Shown here in pieces: positions 34,352 through 50,411 of a stretch of DNA of 51,539 nt. Numbering within the stretch: position 1 is the stretch's first letter; every line of letters begins with the position of its first letter. The notes below the pieces were generated by a model. The model had not been told where the DNA came from. It ran no database searches and saw nothing but the letters and a program-made list of their open reading frames with translations. The position numbers and the translations under genes were made by a program. This DNA comes from a virus, in IMG/VR virus record IMGVR_UViG_3300025505_000001, positions 1 through 51,539 of that record, one strand, 5' to 3'.

Positions 34352-35734
34352 GTGGCTGACTCTACGCCAGAGCAAGCAGGATGGGGCGATGTCTGGAACA
34401 CAATTACCCAGGCTATTAAACACGCCGAAGGCACCGTCGACCACGCCCTTCAAGGGCATCATGTAGACTCCCTCTTCAAGAACTCTGACATCTACGGCCC
34501 CTCTTTGAGAGCGGCCTTGCCTCGGCACACCACGATGGGCCCTCAGCCTTCGGCTGATTACGGGCTGACGGGCCTTCCTGGCCCGAAGGCCAAGGGCTCG
34601 ATACCCGGAGCGGCAGGGCTTCTCGGTGACGCGGCCTCGATGATTCCCGGGGGACCCGGCCCGGAGTTCGAGGCCCCTCGAATCATCGCAAGCACCGAGG
34701 ACTGGCTGAAGCACGTCGCCAATCTGAAGAAGCAGTTGGGCACACGAGACCTTCTCCCGGGCTCAACTGGTTCGATGCAGGCTATCATAAATCACATCTC
34801 TAATACCCGAGACCCGGGTACCAATGTAGGAGGCATGAATGCATTTCTTAGCCAGGCTATGAGACTCGTCAACCAAACTAAAGCCCACATGGAAAACGTC
34901 CTCCGAACAACCCCCAACCGGGCTAGAATCTTGATTGAAGATTTGGAGACGGCCCTCCCCGTGATAGCCAAGACCAAGAAGTCTCTGCCTAAAGTCACGA
35001 CCGCTACAGGAGCCTTCAAACTCCTCCAAAAGGCGGGCTCGGATTTGGACCCGGTCCTTCACGCACAAATTATGGCTAAGAACGCCCTCCTGGGGTCAGT
35101 CGGTAAGGACGCCGCCAAGCAAGGGGCCGCTAATCTGGACTTCGCTCTCGACGAGAGGGCCCGAGCCAAGGCGGCTCTGACAAAGGCAACGGACGCCTCA
35201 GAGTTGGTCCCCTTCATCGAATCGACGCGCCGTGCTCCGTACCCGGGGGGGCAAGAGAATATCCTCGACCCTGAACTGCACGAAGCCTTGCTCAAGAAGT
35301 TTGATTTGCTAAGTGAGGTCGGTGAGCACCAAGGGAAGGCTTTCGCGAAGAACTTAGACAGTGCGCTCCTCACTCGGGCTCGGGCGCTGGAGCACTTGCG
35401 GAAACCTGCAAGCACTCCGGACCAATGGAGGACTGTAAGCGGCAACCTCAAACACTTGGACCCAGATGTCTACAACGCTTGGCGGCAACATGAAGCGATG
35501 GGACATTCCAACAATAATTTCCTGACTCCCGGCGAGTTCTCTCGAAGCCGTAACCCGTTCGAAGCATTCTCGACGACGGAGTGGCCCCCGTATTCTGAAG
35601 AGGCGGGGATAGGGATGCCCAAAGATGTATGGCATCATGGCCTAGAAGAGCGAACTCAAATGGACCTGATGAGACTCCTCCAGCAAATCTCCGCTAAGCA
35701 AGGCCTCAAGGACCTCCCCGGAGGCGGCCTCTAA
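34352..35734 (+). CDS. Hypothetical internal virion protein (460 aa)
   Basis: GTG start. Mostly helical with long Lys/Ala-rich stretches (ENVLRTTPNRARILIEDLET, AFKLLQKAGSDLDPVL). Shares its final base with the next ATG. Position suggests an ejected or structural protein. Confidence 0.55.
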   Translation: MADSTPEQAGWGDVWNTITQAIKHAEGTVDHALQGHHVDSLFKNSDIYGPSLRAALPRHTTMGPQPSADYGLTGLPGPKAKGSIPGAAGLLGDAASMIPGGPGPEFEAPRIIASTEDWLKHVANLKKQLGTRDLLPGSTGSMQAIINHISNTRDPGTNVGGMNAFLSQAMRLVNQTKAHMENVLRTTPNRARILIEDLETALPVIAKTKKSLPKVTTATGAFKLLQKAGSDLDPVLHAQIMAKNALLGSVGKDAAKQGAANLDFALDERARAKAALTKATDASELVPFIESTRRAPYPGGQENILDPELHEALLKKFDLLSEVGEHQGKAFAKNLDSALLTRARALEHLRKPASTPDQWRTVSGNLKHLDPDVYNAWRQHEAMGHSNNNFLTPGEFSRSRNPFEAFSTTEWPPYSEEAGIGMPKDVWHHGLEERTQMDLMRLLQQISAKQGLKDLPGGGL

Positions 35735-37056
35735 TGCGCTTTGCTTTCTACTGCACCGAGGGCTACAGCCTCTGCCTCTGGAATCGTCTTCTCGAAGAGG
35801 GCTTCGAGGTCTTGGTCTACATCGAGGCGCAGGACTACAAAGAAGTCGGAGACGGCATAGTCGAGAAAGCCGGGACCTTCGACGAATTGAAGAAATGGGC
35901 CGGAGACGATGCTGTCTGGGTCTTCGACGGAAACGGTGCGGCAGACAAGGCTGACGCCTTAAGGGCGCAGGGCCGACTGGTTATCAACGACGGCTCCTTC
36001 TCGAAGAGACTAGAGAGCGATAGAATGTGGGGAGAAGAACTTGCCAAGACCTACGGGATATCCGCTCCCGAGACCAAACGATTCAAGACGCTTGACGAGG
36101 CTATGGGCTTCCTGGAAAAGGTCGATGGCGAAGATTATTGGTACTTTAAGAGCGACAAGTACCTGGAGGGCTCTGCCACCTTCGGTACTGAAGCGGAGCA
36201 CCTTGTTCCCTACCTCACTCATCTCAAGTCTCGATTTGGAAATAGCCGCCCTTGCATCCTCCAGAAGCAACTCGAAGGGGTCGCCATCTCTACCAATGCT
36301 TGGTTTAACGGAAGCATCTTCGTTCCGCCGTTCGGCGGGACCATCGAGCATAAGAAGTTTCTCGAAGGAGACAAGGGCCCCCACACCGGATGCCAGATAA
36401 ATCTAGGGTGGCACTACGAGGATGTTCCGACGATTGCCAAGGAGTTGCACTTCGAAGAGATGGCCTCCTTCTTCCGCAAGATGAAAGCGGGTCCTGGGGT
36501 CTATGACATCAACGCCCTCATCTCGTCCGAGGACGAGAAGCCGTACTTCCTTGAGTGGACGCCCCGCTTCGGGTACGACTCCGAGGCCTCGGCCTTCAAT
36601 CGAATCAAGGGGACCCTCGGAGAGTTCCTGTACGCCCTCGCCTCGGGGACTCTCGCAGAGGCTCCGTTCGACACGGGGACCCTCGACGTATCGACCCGTT
36701 TGAGCATTCCGCCCTATCCCTGGGAACACATCGACAAGAACCCTGTAGAGCGGAAGAAGCATACCGGAACTCCCGTAGGGGGAACCGATACCCTGTCGGG
36801 GCCGCCCTTCGCGGCTTACGGGCTGGCTCGGGACGAGGAGGGCCTGTACGTTGCGGACCCCTATGGCTTAGTCGGAATAGCCTGCGCCGTAGGCACCAAT
36901 CTGGGGGCTCTCTGCGAGGAAATCAACGAGACCGCCGAGAAGATAGCCGTAGGAACCCCCAACCTCCAATGGCGAGCGGACGCCCTGGAGACCCTTCAGG
37001 GAGACCTAGATATGCTCCAGGAACTCGGATACCTGACCCATGAGGCGCTAGACTAA
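35734..37056 (+). CDS. PurD-like ATP-grasp ligase
   Basis: 440 aa. An N-terminal pre-ATP-grasp-like region with VWVFDGNGAADKADALRAQG is followed by ESDRMWGEELAKTYGI, ATP-lysine region YWYFKSDKYLEGS (about 136-147), hinge LQKQLEGVAIS (176-186), the GDKGPHTGC loop (212-220) like the GDxGPNTGG of GAR synthetase, and metal-binding YFLEWTPRFG (271-280). It joins a carboxylate to an amine using ATP. No host purD operon context: it lies inside virion genes. Substrate unknown. Confidence 0.8.
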   Translation: MRFAFYCTEGYSLCLWNRLLEEGFEVLVYIEAQDYKEVGDGIVEKAGTFDELKKWAGDDAVWVFDGNGAADKADALRAQGRLVINDGSFSKRLESDRMWGEELAKTYGISAPETKRFKTLDEAMGFLEKVDGEDYWYFKSDKYLEGSATFGTEAEHLVPYLTHLKSRFGNSRPCILQKQLEGVAISTNAWFNGSIFVPPFGGTIEHKKFLEGDKGPHTGCQINLGWHYEDVPTIAKELHFEEMASFFRKMKAGPGVYDINALISSEDEKPYFLEWTPRFGYDSEASAFNRIKGTLGEFLYALASGTLAEAPFDTGTLDVSTRLSIPPYPWEHIDKNPVERKKHTGTPVGGTDTLSGPPFAAYGLARDEEGLYVADPYGLVGIACAVGTNLGALCEEINETAEKIAVGTPNLQWRADALETLQGDLDMLQELGYLTHEALD

Positions 37057-43470: not shown

Positions 43471-44300
43471 GATAGCACCTTCGCCGTCAGGCGTTCCCTC
43501 TCTCCTGTTGAGTATTTGTGGCACTTGGGATTGATGCACCAGTATTGGCGGAGCCGATAGGTCTTCAGGTTCTTGAAGCCGCGCTTCTGGGTTTTGCTTC
43601 CGCAGACGGGGCATCGAAGAGACTGGTTTGTATCCAGGGTGATGTTGGGGTGGGTGTCATCCCACGCTCTGATTCGGTCATAGAACTTCTCCGATAGGAT
43701 TACATCCTTGGCGTTGTACTTCTTCAGCAAGGCCCAGGACTTCGGGTCGCCTCGCATACAGCCCAACCACAACTCAAAGCCGTAGTGCTTGACTTTCTGG
43801 CCGATGCCGAGGGCCTTGCAGAGGTCATCTAGTTTGTTGGAGTTGAATGCGAAAACCTTCTTGATGAGTTTGAGAGTGTCGACTGTCTTGTAGGGGGAAG
43901 GGGGTGTTAGGCCATGCAGGAGGAACTGAGCATTGATGCGCTTGAGGTCGAACTTGTCGATGTTGTGGCCTACGATGAGGTCCGCTCCATCCAAGACATG
44001 CCAGAGGGCCTCCACGAGAACTTTGTCGCTGAATGGGTAATTCTTGTAGAGCGAGAAGTCCGGCAAGGCCCAGGTGACTGGGCGCTTGCCTCGCTCCTTG
44101 GACGAGAAGGAGAGCATGTATCTCTCCCTCTCGAAGGCGATGACGTTTTGCTCCCACTTGTCCCAGGTGTATCCTAGGTTGGGGGCCGTCTCGATGTCAA
44201 GGAATACGACCTTGTATCTAGGCGAAGGGATTACTGGAAGCCCCGCCGCCTGAGCCGCCTGTTGAGGCGAAGGCTTGGCCTGCCTTGAAGGTGACTTCAT
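43467..44300 (-). CDS. DnaQ-like 3'-5' exonuclease with zinc ribbon
   Basis: 277 aa, start overlapping 83 bases of the SSB-like gene; no better in-frame start exists. VVFLDIETAP (motif I), LIVGHNIDKFDLKRI (motif II), and YNAKDVILSEKFY (motif III, D) form a DEDD RNase H-like nuclease. A C-terminal RCPVCGS...YWCINPKCH zinc ribbon probably grips DNA. Likely replication or recombination end-processing. Confidence 0.8.
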   Translation of the reverse strand: MKSPSRQAKPSPQQAAQAAGLPVIPSPRYKVVFLDIETAPNLGYTWDKWEQNVIAFERERYMLSFSSKERGKRPVTWALPDFSLYKNYPFSDKVLVEALWHVLDGADLIVGHNIDKFDLKRINAQFLLHGLTPPSPYKTVDTLKLIKKVFAFNSNKLDDLCKALGIGQKVKHYGFELWLGCMRGDPKSWALLKKYNAKDVILSEKFYDRIRAWDDTHPNITLDTNQSLRCPVCGSKTQKRGFKNLKTYRLRQYWCINPKCHKYSTGERERLTAKVLS

Positions 44301-44688
44301 TGTTGTAGTCTCCCGTCTTCTTGTCTTTCTTCTCAGCCAAGAAGCAAGGCACGTCCTTACCCTCGATGAGCGGGTCGAAGAAGGCCTTCCAGGCTTCGAC
44401 TGCCTGTGTAGAGTCGTTCCTCAGCGTCGGGAAGGTTGCCGCTTTATCGCCGCCGAGCCCAATGTAGTACCGTCCTACGATGTGGCCCGCTTTCGGAGAG
44501 GGGACGACACGGACGGTATATTGCTTCGAGTCAAGGTCGCCACCCTTGAAGAGGCCCGGATACGCGATGAAGTATGTACCCGGCGTAGATTTGGATTCGA
44601 CGATTTCGCCCGGCCCGAAAGAGATTGTGTAATTCCCTTCAGGATAGGTGCTCTTTACGAGGTCGCCAATGGTTTGTGGTGCAGTCAT
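44218..44688 (-). CDS. Putative single-stranded DNA-binding protein
   Basis: 156 aa. ATG overlaps the ATPase stop, with SD inside its last codons. Beta-rich N-terminal region (GNYTISFGPGEIVESKSTPG), then EKKDKKTGDYNNEVTFKAG and a disordered Gly/Ser tail ending NPFA. Phages with Sak4-type recombinases often keep an SSB next to them; assignment rests on that and on shape. Confidence 0.5.
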   Translation of the reverse strand: MTAPQTIGDLVKSTYPEGNYTISFGPGEIVESKSTPGTYFIAYPGLFKGGDLDSKQYTVRVVPSPKAGHIVGRYYIGLGGDKAATFPTLRNDSTQAVEAWKAFFDPLIEGKDVPCFLAEKKDKKTGDYNNEVTFKAGQAFASTGGSGGGASSNPFA

Positions 44689-45461
44689 GCTTTCTCCTTA
44701 GTTACGTTTAGTGAGGTTGCAAACCTTGTTTTGCCCACGCCTGCGGGGCCGTACACAACGATTCTTTTGGGGATGGTTCCGCCGAAGGTACGCTTGATGT
44801 CTTCGATGGTTGGGTCCGGATAGATAAACGGGACAGGCTCTACGTTCTCTGGGAAGCGTCCCTTGGCTCGGTACACCGAGTTGTCGGCGCATCCTATCAT
44901 GCGGGTGCCTTCGGGGATGACGCCTCCAGCCCACTTGATGTCTTGCGGGGCCTTCATCATGTGAAGCAGGGCGTCCGTGAGGTACTCAAACGTCTCCTGC
45001 AACGCAGGATTCATGCTGACCCGAAGGGGCGTCTCCTTGGTGTCCTCGCCTGCCGTGAAGATTGTGGGGATGTCCAGCGACCTGATATAACGATAGACCT
45101 GCTTCACTAGGTTGGTAGTCTTGTTATACATGTGTCGGGCATCCCCGAACTCGTCCACGAGAGACCACGTCGTTTTGCCTGCGGTGTAGGCCTCCTTGAA
45201 TCCGATATCGAGGAAGGTGTTGTTGACCCATGCCGCCGTTGAGTCAAGGGCCATCAGGGCTACGTCCGTCAGGTCGGCTTCGTAGGTCTCGCCCGCTTGG
45301 TTCTTGCAACCCTCCAAGGGCTTGCCCTTCTTGAGCGCCCAGAAGGCCCTCTCTACGTCGTCATGGCCGTTGGCGGGGAACCAGATGACATCGCCTGATG
45401 CGATGCGACCCTGGATGGAATCGGTGCCTCGTTCAAGGTCGATGAGAAGTGTCTTACTCAT
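44685..45461 (-). CDS. Sak4-like recombinase ATPase, apparently circularly permuted
   Basis: 258 aa. It starts with KTLLIDLERGTDSIQGR, the segment that normally follows the P-loop in Sak4/AAA_24 proteins, then Walker B-like VALMALDS (67-74) and IPTIFTAGED (131-140). Walker A YGPAGVGKT (237-245) stands 13 residues before the C-terminus. Reading the C-terminus into the N-terminus restores the usual order. Such ATPases load onto SSB-coated DNA and promote annealing or strand exchange. ATG overlaps the preceding stop by eight bases. Confidence 0.7.
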   Translation of the reverse strand: MSKTLLIDLERGTDSIQGRIASGDVIWFPANGHDDVERAFWALKKGKPLEGCKNQAGETYEADLTDVALMALDSTAAWVNNTFLDIGFKEAYTAGKTTWSLVDEFGDARHMYNKTTNLVKQVYRYIRSLDIPTIFTAGEDTKETPLRVSMNPALQETFEYLTDALLHMMKAPQDIKWAGGVIPEGTRMIGCADNSVYRAKGRFPENVEPVPFIYPDPTIEDIKRTFGGTIPKRIVVYGPAGVGKTRFATSLNVTKEKA

Positions 45462-45633
45462 GCCCCTTTCTCCCGTCTCGCACCCTAGTCAATAGGTCAA
45501 TAGCCGCGTCGATGGGGCTCTTACCCGACCCTCCATTCGTAACATAGAAATCATCACAGAAGGCGCGAAAGCCCGCATCGCCTTTGTTGGGCGCGTAGTC
45601 TTCTACATAGGTAAACTGGATTTCGATTTTCAT
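45454..45633 (-). CDS. Small protein (59 aa), possibly leaderless
   Basis: ATG at 45633 sits six bases after a consensus TATAAT, so transcription should start on the ATG itself; no SD would be in the mRNA. KIEIQFTYVEDYAPNKGDAG, then SGKSPIDAAIDLLTRVR. It overlaps the ATPase start. Function unknown. Confidence 0.6.
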   Translation of the reverse strand: MKIEIQFTYVEDYAPNKGDAGFRAFCDDFYVTNGGSGKSPIDAAIDLLTRVRDGRKGHE

Positions 45634-45639
45634 AAATTG

Positions 45640-45668
45640 ATTATATCATCCTTTCAATTTTTTGTCAA
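45640..45668 (-). promoter_or_regulatory. Perfect-consensus sigma-70 promoter
   Basis: Minus strand TTGACA (45668-45663), 17-bp spacer, TATAAT (45645-45640). Its -35 overlaps the last codons of the upstream gene. It drives the recombination genes. It shares TTGACAAAAAAT with the promoter at 50894. Confidence 0.9.
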
Positions 45669-45881
45669 GTCGGCTTCGCCGAAAAATCCTTCACCACTCA
45701 TGTGGCTGAATCGAAACTCCCAACAGACACAGTGCTTGTGCTCATCGAGAATTTCGGAGTGGTAACGACAGGGACGATTTACCTTGAACCCAATCCCGAA
45801 TATCCAAAGGTATCCATCCCCCTGGTGCCAAGACGAACCATGTCCGCATCGGCACCTCGGATACGGTCCTCGGGGAATCAC
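45654..45881 (-). CDS. Cys/His-rich protein (75 aa)
   Basis: GTG overlaps the nuclease stop (GTGA). CRCGHGSSWH, CRYHSE and HKHCVCWEF give many potential zinc ligands; several small phage proteins share a similar CxCGH start. Unknown function. Confidence 0.6.
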   Translation of the reverse strand: MIPRGPYPRCRCGHGSSWHQGDGYLWIFGIGFKVNRPCRYHSEILDEHKHCVCWEFRFSHMSGEGFFGEADLTKN

Positions 45882-46789
45882 GAGGCTCTCCGGTCGAACA
45901 TCACGTTGAGGACTTCGTCGCTAAGGACGTTTCCATAGTATTCAGCAACGCAAACATCCTTGTAAGGGCATCCACCACAAGACTGACCTCCTGTTCGGAT
46001 TTCAGTTCGAGTGTAATAGCCCCTCTTATCAGCCCACTCCACCGTGGCGAGGAGATTGATAAGTTCAGATTCAAAGGTGGCGAGTTCTGCCACAGTCTTA
46101 GCAGGAACCGGGATGCGCTGGAGGTAGTCTTCAACGGCGGTCGAGGCGTTGTTAGCGGCGGGGACTCCTTTCTTGGTGAGCCTAACCTCTCGATGACCGA
46201 AGCCCGGTGGGACTTCTCGGCGTACCCGGTCGAGCATGAAGTCGACAGGTTCACCAAAGACTCTCCATCCAATGTATTGATAGAGCCAGTGTTGGAAGTC
46301 GAGGGGAAGCCAGTCGGTCTCGTCCTTGACGGAGTCGCAGGTTTTTTTGTCCACAACGAGGAGATGCCCCTCATCGCGGACCAAAGCGTCAAACGTCCCC
46401 CGGACGGTCCAGTCTCCGATTTGAACATAGATGGGCTCCTCTACTTTCAGTATCTCGTAACGGTCCTGCATTCCCTTGTGCTGGTACCAAAAATCTAACA
46501 TATCCTCCATCAGGTAGCGGTCTTCATGTGAGAAGGATTCGGGCGGATAATCTTTGTCGTGGTCGTTAAACCCTTTTCCCCAACATTGGATTAGTTCATT
46601 CTGCATGGTCCTTAGAGCAACGTCGGGGTGGGTGCGATACCCAGCCGCCCAAGCCCGGTGCATGACCGTTCCAATCAGCATCTTCCGGTTGATTGCACGG
46701 GTCTCTAGGCCTCGGACCCTCTGGTTGAACGAGCGGTACTGGCAACGCTTGAAGGTCAAGAGGTCGGACATCGAGATATCTTTAGTCAT
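45878..46789 (-). CDS. Cas4/AddB-like PD-(D/E)XK nuclease with Fe-S cysteines
   Basis: 303 aa. FKRCQYRSF at the start (C16), GTVMHRA (H44), GTFDALVRDEGHLLVVDKKT (D134, D147, K149), then FQHWLYQY, and CGGCPYKDVC (C271, C274, C280). The four cysteines match the iron-sulfur cluster of Cas4/AddB nucleases. A DNA end-processing exonuclease, probably feeding the Sak4-like ATPase. ATGA overlap at its start. Confidence 0.8.
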   Translation of the reverse strand: MTKDISMSDLLTFKRCQYRSFNQRVRGLETRAINRKMLIGTVMHRAWAAGYRTHPDVALRTMQNELIQCWGKGFNDHDKDYPPESFSHEDRYLMEDMLDFWYQHKGMQDRYEILKVEEPIYVQIGDWTVRGTFDALVRDEGHLLVVDKKTCDSVKDETDWLPLDFQHWLYQYIGWRVFGEPVDFMLDRVRREVPPGFGHREVRLTKKGVPAANNASTAVEDYLQRIPVPAKTVAELATFESELINLLATVEWADKRGYYTRTEIRTGGQSCGGCPYKDVCVAEYYGNVLSDEVLNVMFDRRAS

Positions 46790-47639: not shown

Positions 47640-48090
47640 AATCGTCCAGCCACTTCGCTAAGGTCATCCGGTAGTTGATGGCGTCGAGATGGCTGTCTTC
47701 CTTGTAGTCGCCAATCATCCGAGAGTCTTTCACGTCGCAGAGAGCGGCGACGAGGATGAGACGCTTCTCTTCTTTGCAGATACCGTCCATCCCGATGACC
47801 TTCAGGACATGGTCGAGCATCGTCGTGACTTGGTTCTCAAGGGCCCAAGTGTCCTTGTACTCGCCCTCGCGTTGAGCGAAGACGGCTGAGCACTTGTCCA
47901 TCGTGGCTCGGGCGGCAGAGGGGAAGGCAGGCTCAGGCTCCGCCTCTTTGGTGACGTTGTAGGCGTCTGATTCGATGGTCTCTCCCCATGAAGAAACAGG
48001 GCGCATGATTGCACATCCCATTATACTGCAATAGATATCGTGTTGGGAGTTGTTTGCGAAGACGCAATCCTTGTCGTGTATTAATGCCAT
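47617..48090 (-). CDS. Hypothetical DUF6378-like protein (157 aa)
   Basis: C-terminal half (EYKDTWALENQVTTMLDHVL, then LILVAALCDVKDSRMIGDYK and HLDAINYRMTLAKWLDDY) is the helical arrangement I associate with DUF6378, common next to phage nucleotide genes. N-terminus has several Cys. Overlaps the polymerase end by ten bases. Confidence 0.5.
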   Translation of the reverse strand: MALIHDKDCVFANNSQHDIYCSIMGCAIMRPVSSWGETIESDAYNVTKEAEPEPAFPSAARATMDKCSAVFAQREGEYKDTWALENQVTTMLDHVLKVIGMDGICKEEKRLILVAALCDVKDSRMIGDYKEDSHLDAINYRMTLAKWLDDYVNPKDS

Positions 48091-50411
48091 TCTGGTGTTA
48101 CCTCAATGTCGGCGATGATGGGTACGTCAAGCGTGGCCCCAAAGAGTTTTTCGAGTTGAGCGGGAACGTATTGTTCCATCGTTGCTTTGATTATAGCAGA
48201 TACTGTCAAGTCGTTTTCTGGAAGGATTTCTACTCCCAGGGAATCGTGGACCTCGAAGACGATAGCCGCTCGGTACTCCTCATGGAGTCTATTGATTGCC
48301 AGCATAAGCATATCTGAAGCCACCGGGGACACTTTTGCGTTGATGGCTTGACGAAGAGCTTCTTCCCGCTCGCGAGCACCGTTGGCGTATATGTTGGGTA
48401 ATCGTCGGATTCGTCCAAGGCGGCTGACCACTCGACCCGTTGCCTTGAGTTCATCGTTAACGTGACTGTACCAGGGAAAAAACCCGGGCCATCTACGGTG
48501 GAAACTCTCATAGTAATCGTTTGCTTCCTTTTCACTTAGTCGTATGTTGTGCTCAATGAGGGCTTGCTTCCTGAAGGTGTACGGGGTGCCCCCGTAGAGG
48601 AACGCGAAGTTGCTAACCTTCGCACGGGACCGTTCCTCTTTGGTGACTTCCTCGGGGGCCTTACCCGTGATGTCTGCGGCCATCAAGAGATGAACGTCTT
48701 GTCCTTCTTGGTAGGCCTGAAGCATCCGGGTCTCTCTGGCTTCGAACGCCGCAAGCCTGAGTTCGATTTGGCTGTAGTCAGCGATGACAAGAGTCTTCCC
48801 AGGTCCCGCAGTAACGAGACGGCGGATTCTTGGGTCCCGTGGAAGTTGTTGGAGATTTGGACCTCGACAGGAGGTGCGTCCAGTAACTGTGTAGGTAACT
48901 GAATATGAAGGATGAATCCGCCCGTCACCGCCCCTAAGTTTACTGTAAGGCGTGAGGTAGGTCGTGAGGAGTTTGTTTTGCTTCCTGTATTCGAGGAGTG
49001 TATCGAGGACGGGCTCGTCGACGATGCCTTGGAGTTTTTTGAGTTGTTCTTCATCGGTCGATGCTAAGTCCTTGTCGGTCTTGCCTTGAGGAGGGAGTCC
49101 TAGTTTGTCAAATAGGAGTTTTCGGACGTGGGGATGGGAGTTGGGGTTGAACTTTGTGATGCCGAGAAGTAGTGCTTTCGATGTAAGTTCTCCACGCAGT
49201 TCCTCAACTCTTCCAGAAACAACTCGTCCCGCATCTGCAAGGTTGGGCTCCGAGATATAGACACCTCGACGCTGTATCTCGCGAAGAGCACGGCTGGCCG
49301 GAAGCATGACGTAAGAGTATATGTTTCGCGATTTTGGGTCCATCTCTGACCAAAACTTATTAGCAAGCAGGCGAGTGTAACGGCAATCGCGAGCGAGATA
49401 GGTAGCCAGTTCATCTTCCGTGGTTCCTTCCATGTTGTCCCAGTCAATCTCTTTCCAGGGCTTGACGCCTAGATGAGTCGTCGCTAGGATTTCGAGGTTT
49501 CGTTTGCCCTCTTCGTTGAGCAAGAACGACATGAGCATGGTATCGTCAAAGTGGAAATCAATGCCGAAGTGATGACGAAGCACAATACGGTCAAAGAAAG
49601 TAGCGTTGTGTCCCACCAGACGGCGGCCCATCTTCTGTAGCAATACGCACCGCTTAATTGCTTCTCGTAGATGCAATTCATCGTAGACTGTAACGAGTCC
49701 CTCGCCCTCGTCAATGCCGATAAGACGAATGTCGGACGAGTCTCCGAGGCCTCGGGTCTCGATGTCAACTGCCACGAAACCGTCCGGGCACCCCAGTTCA
49801 ACCCAGTCCACCGGACCATTGACCCAGGGGGTTCGGATGTCTTGGTAGCCATCGGTCAGTGCGGCTTTGAACTTGAGGATGTCCTCGAAAATGGACTGGG
49901 TGTATCGAGGGCTTCGAAGGGCCGCCGCAGGATGGATAGTTGGGATAACGCGGCTGAGTGAGCCCTCTCCATATACCTTATGTAAGTCATGCAACTGTCC
50001 ACGATACTTCGAAACCCCGCTCTTCCCCGTGAGGCTTCGTAGGGCAACATTCCCAAGGGAGAGAATGACTTTAGGGCGGACATCTTTTATCTCCTCGATG
50101 AGGTATGGCTTGCAGGCATTGGTCTCTTTGATGCTGGGTTCTCTCTGGGCTCGGCCAACCATAGGTGGCATACATCTAGTGGCATTAGTGAAATATAATT
50201 CATCAGGTTTAAGACCAGCGCGGGAGAGTAGGCTTCGAAGCAGGTCTCCAGTTGGTCCAACAAAGGGACGCCCAAACTTAGCCTCCTGCCAGCCAGGGCC
50301 CTGACCGACGACCATTCCCTTTGCCCCAGAGGGGCCTACGCCCCATACACAGACCGATTGCTTGGCCGAGAGATGCAAGGGACATAGGGCGCACGATGAG
50401 TTACGAGGCAT
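48081..50411 (-). CDS. Uracil-DNA glycosylase (family 4)/DNA polymerase A fusion
   Basis: 776 aa. Residues 1-190: CALC (7-10), GQGPGWQEAKFGRPFVG, C80 and C100, and IHPAA, as in iron-sulfur family 4 UDG. Residues 211-350: exonuclease with DIE (216-218), GHN (267-269) and YLARD (338-342). Residues 360-776: polymerase A with DYSQIE (545-550), RSRAKVSNFAFLYG (594-607) and VHDS (721-724). The glutamate normally after HD is Ser. Position 602 (E. coli 762 equivalent) is Phe. Replicative polymerase; SD GGAG before ATG. Confidence 0.85.
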   Translation of the reverse strand: MPRNSSCALCPLHLSAKQSVCVWGVGPSGAKGMVVGQGPGWQEAKFGRPFVGPTGDLLRSLLSRAGLKPDELYFTNATRCMPPMVGRAQREPSIKETNACKPYLIEEIKDVRPKVILSLGNVALRSLTGKSGVSKYRGQLHDLHKVYGEGSLSRVIPTIHPAAALRSPRYTQSIFEDILKFKAALTDGYQDIRTPWVNGPVDWVELGCPDGFVAVDIETRGLGDSSDIRLIGIDEGEGLVTVYDELHLREAIKRCVLLQKMGRRLVGHNATFFDRIVLRHHFGIDFHFDDTMLMSFLLNEEGKRNLEILATTHLGVKPWKEIDWDNMEGTTEDELATYLARDCRYTRLLANKFWSEMDPKSRNIYSYVMLPASRALREIQRRGVYISEPNLADAGRVVSGRVEELRGELTSKALLLGITKFNPNSHPHVRKLLFDKLGLPPQGKTDKDLASTDEEQLKKLQGIVDEPVLDTLLEYRKQNKLLTTYLTPYSKLRGGDGRIHPSYSVTYTVTGRTSCRGPNLQQLPRDPRIRRLVTAGPGKTLVIADYSQIELRLAAFEARETRMLQAYQEGQDVHLLMAADITGKAPEEVTKEERSRAKVSNFAFLYGGTPYTFRKQALIEHNIRLSEKEANDYYESFHRRWPGFFPWYSHVNDELKATGRVVSRLGRIRRLPNIYANGAREREEALRQAINAKVSPVASDMLMLAINRLHEEYRAAIVFEVHDSLGVEILPENDLTVSAIIKATMEQYVPAQLEKLFGATLDVPIIADIEVTPEWH

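Follow-up and report, generated by a model that had tools for sequence, protein, structure and literature searches.

A probable circularly permuted Sak4-like recombinase encoded on a metagenomic phage contig

The gene at positions 44685–45461 of the window (the whole 51,539-nt stretch analysed, IMG/VR record IMGVR_UViG_3300025505_000001) probably encodes a natural circularly permuted phage Sak4 recombinase of the AAA_24, RecA-core type. The claim is limited to a single sequence, known from one metagenomic contig. Sak4 proteins are RecA-core, ATP-dependent annealases aided by a cognate SSB (PMC5928155). The colinear order of AAA_24/Sak4 proteins, in which the P-loop comes first and is followed by beta2 and Walker B, is not that of the window protein; because homology to the family is present and this order is not, we treat the protein as a permuted derivative rather than a standard member. 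In the arrangement that we propose, the first fold unit (beta1, P-loop and alphaA; about 25 residues) would have been relocated behind the native C-terminus via a TIPK linker, the chain would now begin at beta2, and the new ends would lie in the alphaA–beta2 loop. The gene and its parts are the following.

45462–45474, minus strand: Shine–Dalgarno-like GGGAGAAAGGGGC, abutting the ATG and supporting the recombinase start (sequence)
44685–45461, minus strand: putative circularly permuted Sak4-like (AAA_24) recombinase gene (ORF list, profile matches)
45420–45449, minus strand: N-terminal strand LLIDLERGTD, residues 5–14, whose usual place is about 15 residues after the P-loop (alignment, AlphaFold2)
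45243–45263, minus strand: Walker B strand VALMALD, residues 67–73 (alignment; AlphaFold2 strand 67–73)
44856–44864, minus strand: K200-x-R202, candidate trans-acting finger (Lys and Arg invariant in 51 normal Sak4s)
44778–44816, minus strand: native C-terminal motif DPTIEDIKRTFGG, residues 216–228 (alignment with relatives)
44688–44777, minus strand: putatively relocated segment, residues 229–258, comprising the linker TIPK, beta1, P-loop, alphaA and the tail NVTKEKA (profiles, AlphaFold2)
44727–44750, minus strand: Walker A GPAGVGKT, residues 238–245, 13 residues from the protein end (sequence)
44694–44699, minus strand: AAGGAG within the last recombinase codons, ribosome site for the next gene (sequence)

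Profile searches carry most of the argument. The whole protein matched PF13479 AAA_24 with 40.2 bits (E 4.2e-10; the curated cut-off is 27 bits) in two stretches of swapped order, residues 2–203 aligning to profile positions 23–195 and the last ~30 residues to positions 2–23. The Sak4 family PHROG 124 matched with an E-value of 5e-18, Walker A and Walker B both being present, and was split in the six-frame search of the window into 64–257 and then 43–64. When the two ends of the protein were searched separately against Pfam, the isolated N-terminal 230 aa recovered AAA_24 positions 23–195 (E 1.7e-4), and AAA_24 was the best of all Pfam families for the isolated C-terminal 34 aa (E 7.6e-5, positions 2–23). 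Against a further HMM, made from IMG/VR Sak4s of normal order, the C-terminal piece scored 12.9 bits at model positions 33–51, compared with 8.1 for the best of 2000 shuffles, and the front piece aligned to positions 54–96 and 229–264. Relatives scanned with Pfam each gave a single stretch in normal order. The Sak4/AAA_24 assignment and the permuted order, both put forward in a preliminary description of this DNA, are thus borne out by two complementary, swapped stretches in both profiles, and by the pieces taken separately.

Short P-loop pieces resemble those of many NTPases, and AAA_16, ATPase_2 and VCP also matched the C-terminal piece weakly, as might be expected if the protein's original P-loop had disappeared and an unrelated one, from another NTPase, had been added as a tail. 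We consider such an origin very unlikely, as AAA_24 outperformed the other families for the 34-aa piece by ~40-fold in E-value, the piece covers exactly the part of the profile that is absent at the front, and the P-loop piece of the phage's other ATPase (22–1197) gave no score against the normal-order Sak4 HMM. The C-terminal motif of the relatives is DPTYDKLKSVIKG or similar (DPT..G), and its counterpart in the window protein is DPTIEDIKRTFGG, after which come the linker TIPK and RIVVYGPAGVGKTRFATSL (beta1/P-loop), in that order. This is the order predicted by a permutation that fuses the old C- and N-termini, whereas loss of the P-loop and addition of a random tail would not predict it.

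The layout of motifs agrees largely with what had been noted beforehand. Walker B had been placed near residue 73, and VALMALD indeed ends at D73, although some alignments put D66 at this site instead; the protein has no Walker A other than that in YGPAGVGKT at residues 237–245 of 258, which had been described as its sole P-loop. LLIDLERGTD had been given as the very start of the chain: the strand is there and near the N-terminus, but the protein begins MSKTLLIDLERGTDS, with LLID from residue 5. Joining the two ends recreates the order of P-loop then strand, as proposed, but not with exactly natural spacing, since the Walker A Lys and the strand Asp are then separated by 22 residues, against 15 in, for example, L145. 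Because the two free tails are together ~7 residues longer than the normal loop, closure of the ATP site in cis is plausible.

The window protein keeps K200, R202, D8, G12, T13, Y237, G238, G241, G243, K244 and T245. The retention of the Walker motifs, K200/R202 and the DPT motif suggests, at the level of sequence, that the permuted protein does the same job as a normal Sak4. Several residues conserved across the PMBT14-type family are missing, as they might be from a gene that was permuted but is now inactive and decaying. We regard decay as quite unlikely, given that Walker A, Walker B and K-x-R are kept and that the ORF and its overlaps are intact; the Sak4 family is, moreover, very divergent anyway.

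The gene encodes 258 aa on the minus strand, with its ATG at 45461 and its stop at 44685–44687, where an ATGA overlap with the next gene occupies 44685–44688. The GGGAGAAAGGGGC element before the ATG and the AAGGAG and ATGA overlap at the 3′ end give both gene ends a genuine look. Within the recombinase tail the best coding frame by codon usage is the gene's own, with a weaker signal than the gene average (0.16 versus 0.52 bits per codon). Sak4 genes usually begin upstream of a P-loop, which could point to a standard Sak4 whose start was mis-called or whose frame was shifted; this reading is refuted by the sequence itself and is virtually excluded, as a six-frame scan as far as the nuclease gene found no upstream Walker A or P-loop and only nine open codons precede the ATG. 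The preliminary description had held that a missing base or a rearrangement splitting a normal gene would count against the permutation. We saw neither: the frame is open, the ends are intact and there is no P-loop upstream.

A chimeric contig, produced by assembly or amplification, could also have placed a P-loop piece behind the gene, and we know the arrangement from one metagenomic contig, with no independent copy found. Such an artefact is nevertheless unlikely. The reading frame is uninterrupted and begins behind a ribosome site; the last codons of the relocated piece also supply the ribosome site of the next gene and the ATGA shared with it; no P-loop remnant is left upstream; and the break falls exactly between positions 22 and 23 of the AAA_24 profile and at position 64 of PHROG 124. 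The permutation itself may have arisen through duplication and truncation or through a move of the 5′ segment. A 15-nt near-perfect direct repeat links 45268–45282 (the EADLT coding stretch of the recombinase) with the intergenic positions 45664–45678; it is not of the kind expected for a tandem-duplication scar, was rejected as one, and is probably due to chance. Between the nuclease and the recombinase lies a 59-aa ORF (45454–45633, minus strand) with gene-like codon usage and no Pfam family match, whose TNGGSGKS was considered as a P-loop and rejected because it is not a Walker A.

Structure prediction with comparison to Sak4 and RecA folds, which had been proposed as a check, yielded a RecA-like model whose elements are rotated relative to a normal Sak4 and which has RecA and Sak4 matches in Foldseek. 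The AlphaFold2 alignment combined core rows in natural order with P-loop fragments as separate, unmodified rows; the resulting pLDDT of 81.3 and pTM of 0.74 are to be read with the fact that rows were picked so that the Walker B and P-loop columns agree, which aids the model and is not independent evidence. The PMBT14 Sak4, modelled as a control, reached a pLDDT of 90 and a pTM of 0.86. The predicted elements of the two proteins were as follows.

Window protein: E3-8 H14-22 E25-29 H33-45 [E49-53 E59-62] E67-73 H75-93 H105-127 E133-137 H152-161 E164-170 ... E213-215 H219-225 E233-237 H244-250
PMBT14 Sak4 control: E32-37 H43-47; E54-58 H63-67 E73-77 H81-92 E100-104 H106-120 H131-154 E157-167 ... 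H188-197 E200-211 ... E250-252 H256-263

Except for one extra hairpin, the order in the window protein is a cyclic rotation of that in the control. In Foldseek searches the permuted model matched RecA 2oep (E 4e-4), with the Sak4 structure 8RC5 absent from its matches, and the control matched 8RC5 (E 2e-11). Matches to the permuted model in BFVD were phage Sak4/AAA proteins, including that of Serbin; as no TM-score (by query) exceeded 0.60, these matches include no evident example of the same topology. Moderate TM-scores are expected here, as Foldseek is an order-dependent aligner. Judged from the AlphaFold2 model and these matches, the predicted protein is of RecA-core fold.

For a permuted Sak4, it is most likely that an ordinary RecA core refolds, with the C-terminal beta1/P-loop inserting alongside the chain's own N-terminal strand; ATP would then be bound at subunit interfaces, in a site made from both chain ends. 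The solved Sak4 of phage 52A (8RC5) is described as a Rad51-like filament with ATPgammaS (PMC11846896), so 'ring', as used earlier for the Sak4 assembly, is not the most fitting term. Since Sak4 forms filaments and the P-loop piece sits at the chain end after a short linker, a 3D domain swap can also be envisaged, in which the C-terminal beta1/P-loop enters the neighbouring subunit to give two-chain ATP sites and a chain-linked filament. The AlphaFold2 monomer (pTM as above, with a pLDDT of about 80 for the C-terminal P-loop segment) favours closure in cis, and we think a swap doubtful; of the two arrangements, it would be the more novel. We give a similarly low probability to a functional permuted recombinase that hands its P-loop, tethered behind the K-x-R/DPT region, to a neighbouring subunit, with changes to ATP-site sharing and to the control of filament growth. 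That the permutation alters how subunits share ATP is speculation.

The nearest relatives are ~20% identical to the window protein, and all 80 of the 80 IMG/VR relatives examined are P-loop-first. Peptide and profile scans of IMG/VR and GTDB, and tblastn in phages and plasmids, found no permuted relative, sensitivity being low at ~20% identity. A DNA pattern scan for a start codon plus the strand returned, among the matches listed, mostly unrelated proteins and none permuted except the window's own. Alignment ends had hinted that Microbacterium phages Typher and Krampus encode permutants; both proved to be P-loop-first and were rejected. One weak IMG/VR match (L001, 3001–3132) was discarded as the UDG/polymerase linker of another phage, and we attribute to chance the DPTIEDIKR that this linker shares with the recombinase C-terminus. 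Scans with terminase and polymerase turned up no phage closely related to this one.

Known members of the Sak4 family (PHROG 124) include HK620 Sak4, 52A Sak4 (PDB 8RC5), PMBT14 gp43 and Serbin gp46. The window protein resembles them in whole-length profile homology, Walker A and B, the K-x-R strand, the C-terminal DPT motif, operon partners and a RecA-like model, but differs in a P-loop that is not first (238–245 of 258), a chain that runs from beta2 and an identity of only about 20–25%. The best phage tblastn match, the RecA-like recombinase gp48 of the Goodmanvirus Typher, aligns colinearly between beta2 and the DPT motif but has the normal order, with its P-loop at about residue 57 and longer tails at both termini. 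The permuted P-loop proteins known so far belong to the RsgA/YqeH type of GTPase; YjeQ/RsgA, YqeH and CpgA share with the window protein a P-loop NTPase core with rotated motif order, but belong to the unrelated GTPase (TRAFAC) class and are not RecA-family recombinases. Our literature search found no circularly permuted Sak4 or RecA/Rad51-type recombinase, in keeping with the statement in the preliminary description that no such Sak4 was known. If the permutation is real, moving the Walker A unit of a RecA core apparently costs little, the protein offers a natural way to test which connections of the chain ATP-gated filament assembly requires, and pipelines that expect P-loop-first proteins can miss such genes.

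The setting of the gene, a polA – PD-(D/E)XK nuclease – Sak4 block, is the same in Serbin, PMBT14 and the Manatee Spring phage MW202455.1, whose Sak4 proteins are all P-loop-first. The neighbours in the window are the following.

44218–44688, minus strand: 156-aa protein with a Gly-rich tail, candidate SSB partner on positional grounds only
45878–46789, minus strand: PD-(D/E)XK (Cas4/RecB-like) exonuclease, syntenic partner (profiles, synteny)
48081–50411, minus strand: fusion of a family-4-like UDG, a 3′-5′ exonuclease and a family A DNA polymerase, syntenic partner (profiles)

Together with these replication and recombination genes, the permuted Sak4 is predicted to act as an ATP-dependent single-strand annealing recombinase. 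An ssb gene adjoins up to 80% of sak4 genes (PMC5928155); the 156-aa neighbour, which overlaps the recombinase and matched neither an SSB family nor any other, may be its SSB partner. The UDG domain of the polymerase is N-terminal, and relatives of this protein align over nearly the full length, the UDG part included. Elsewhere in the window, the largest gene of the phage (38390–42568, plus strand) encodes a 1392-aa protein with no Pfam match, and a 440-aa protein with a GARS_A (PurD-like ATP-grasp) domain is encoded at 35734–37056 (plus strand), inside the structural gene cluster.
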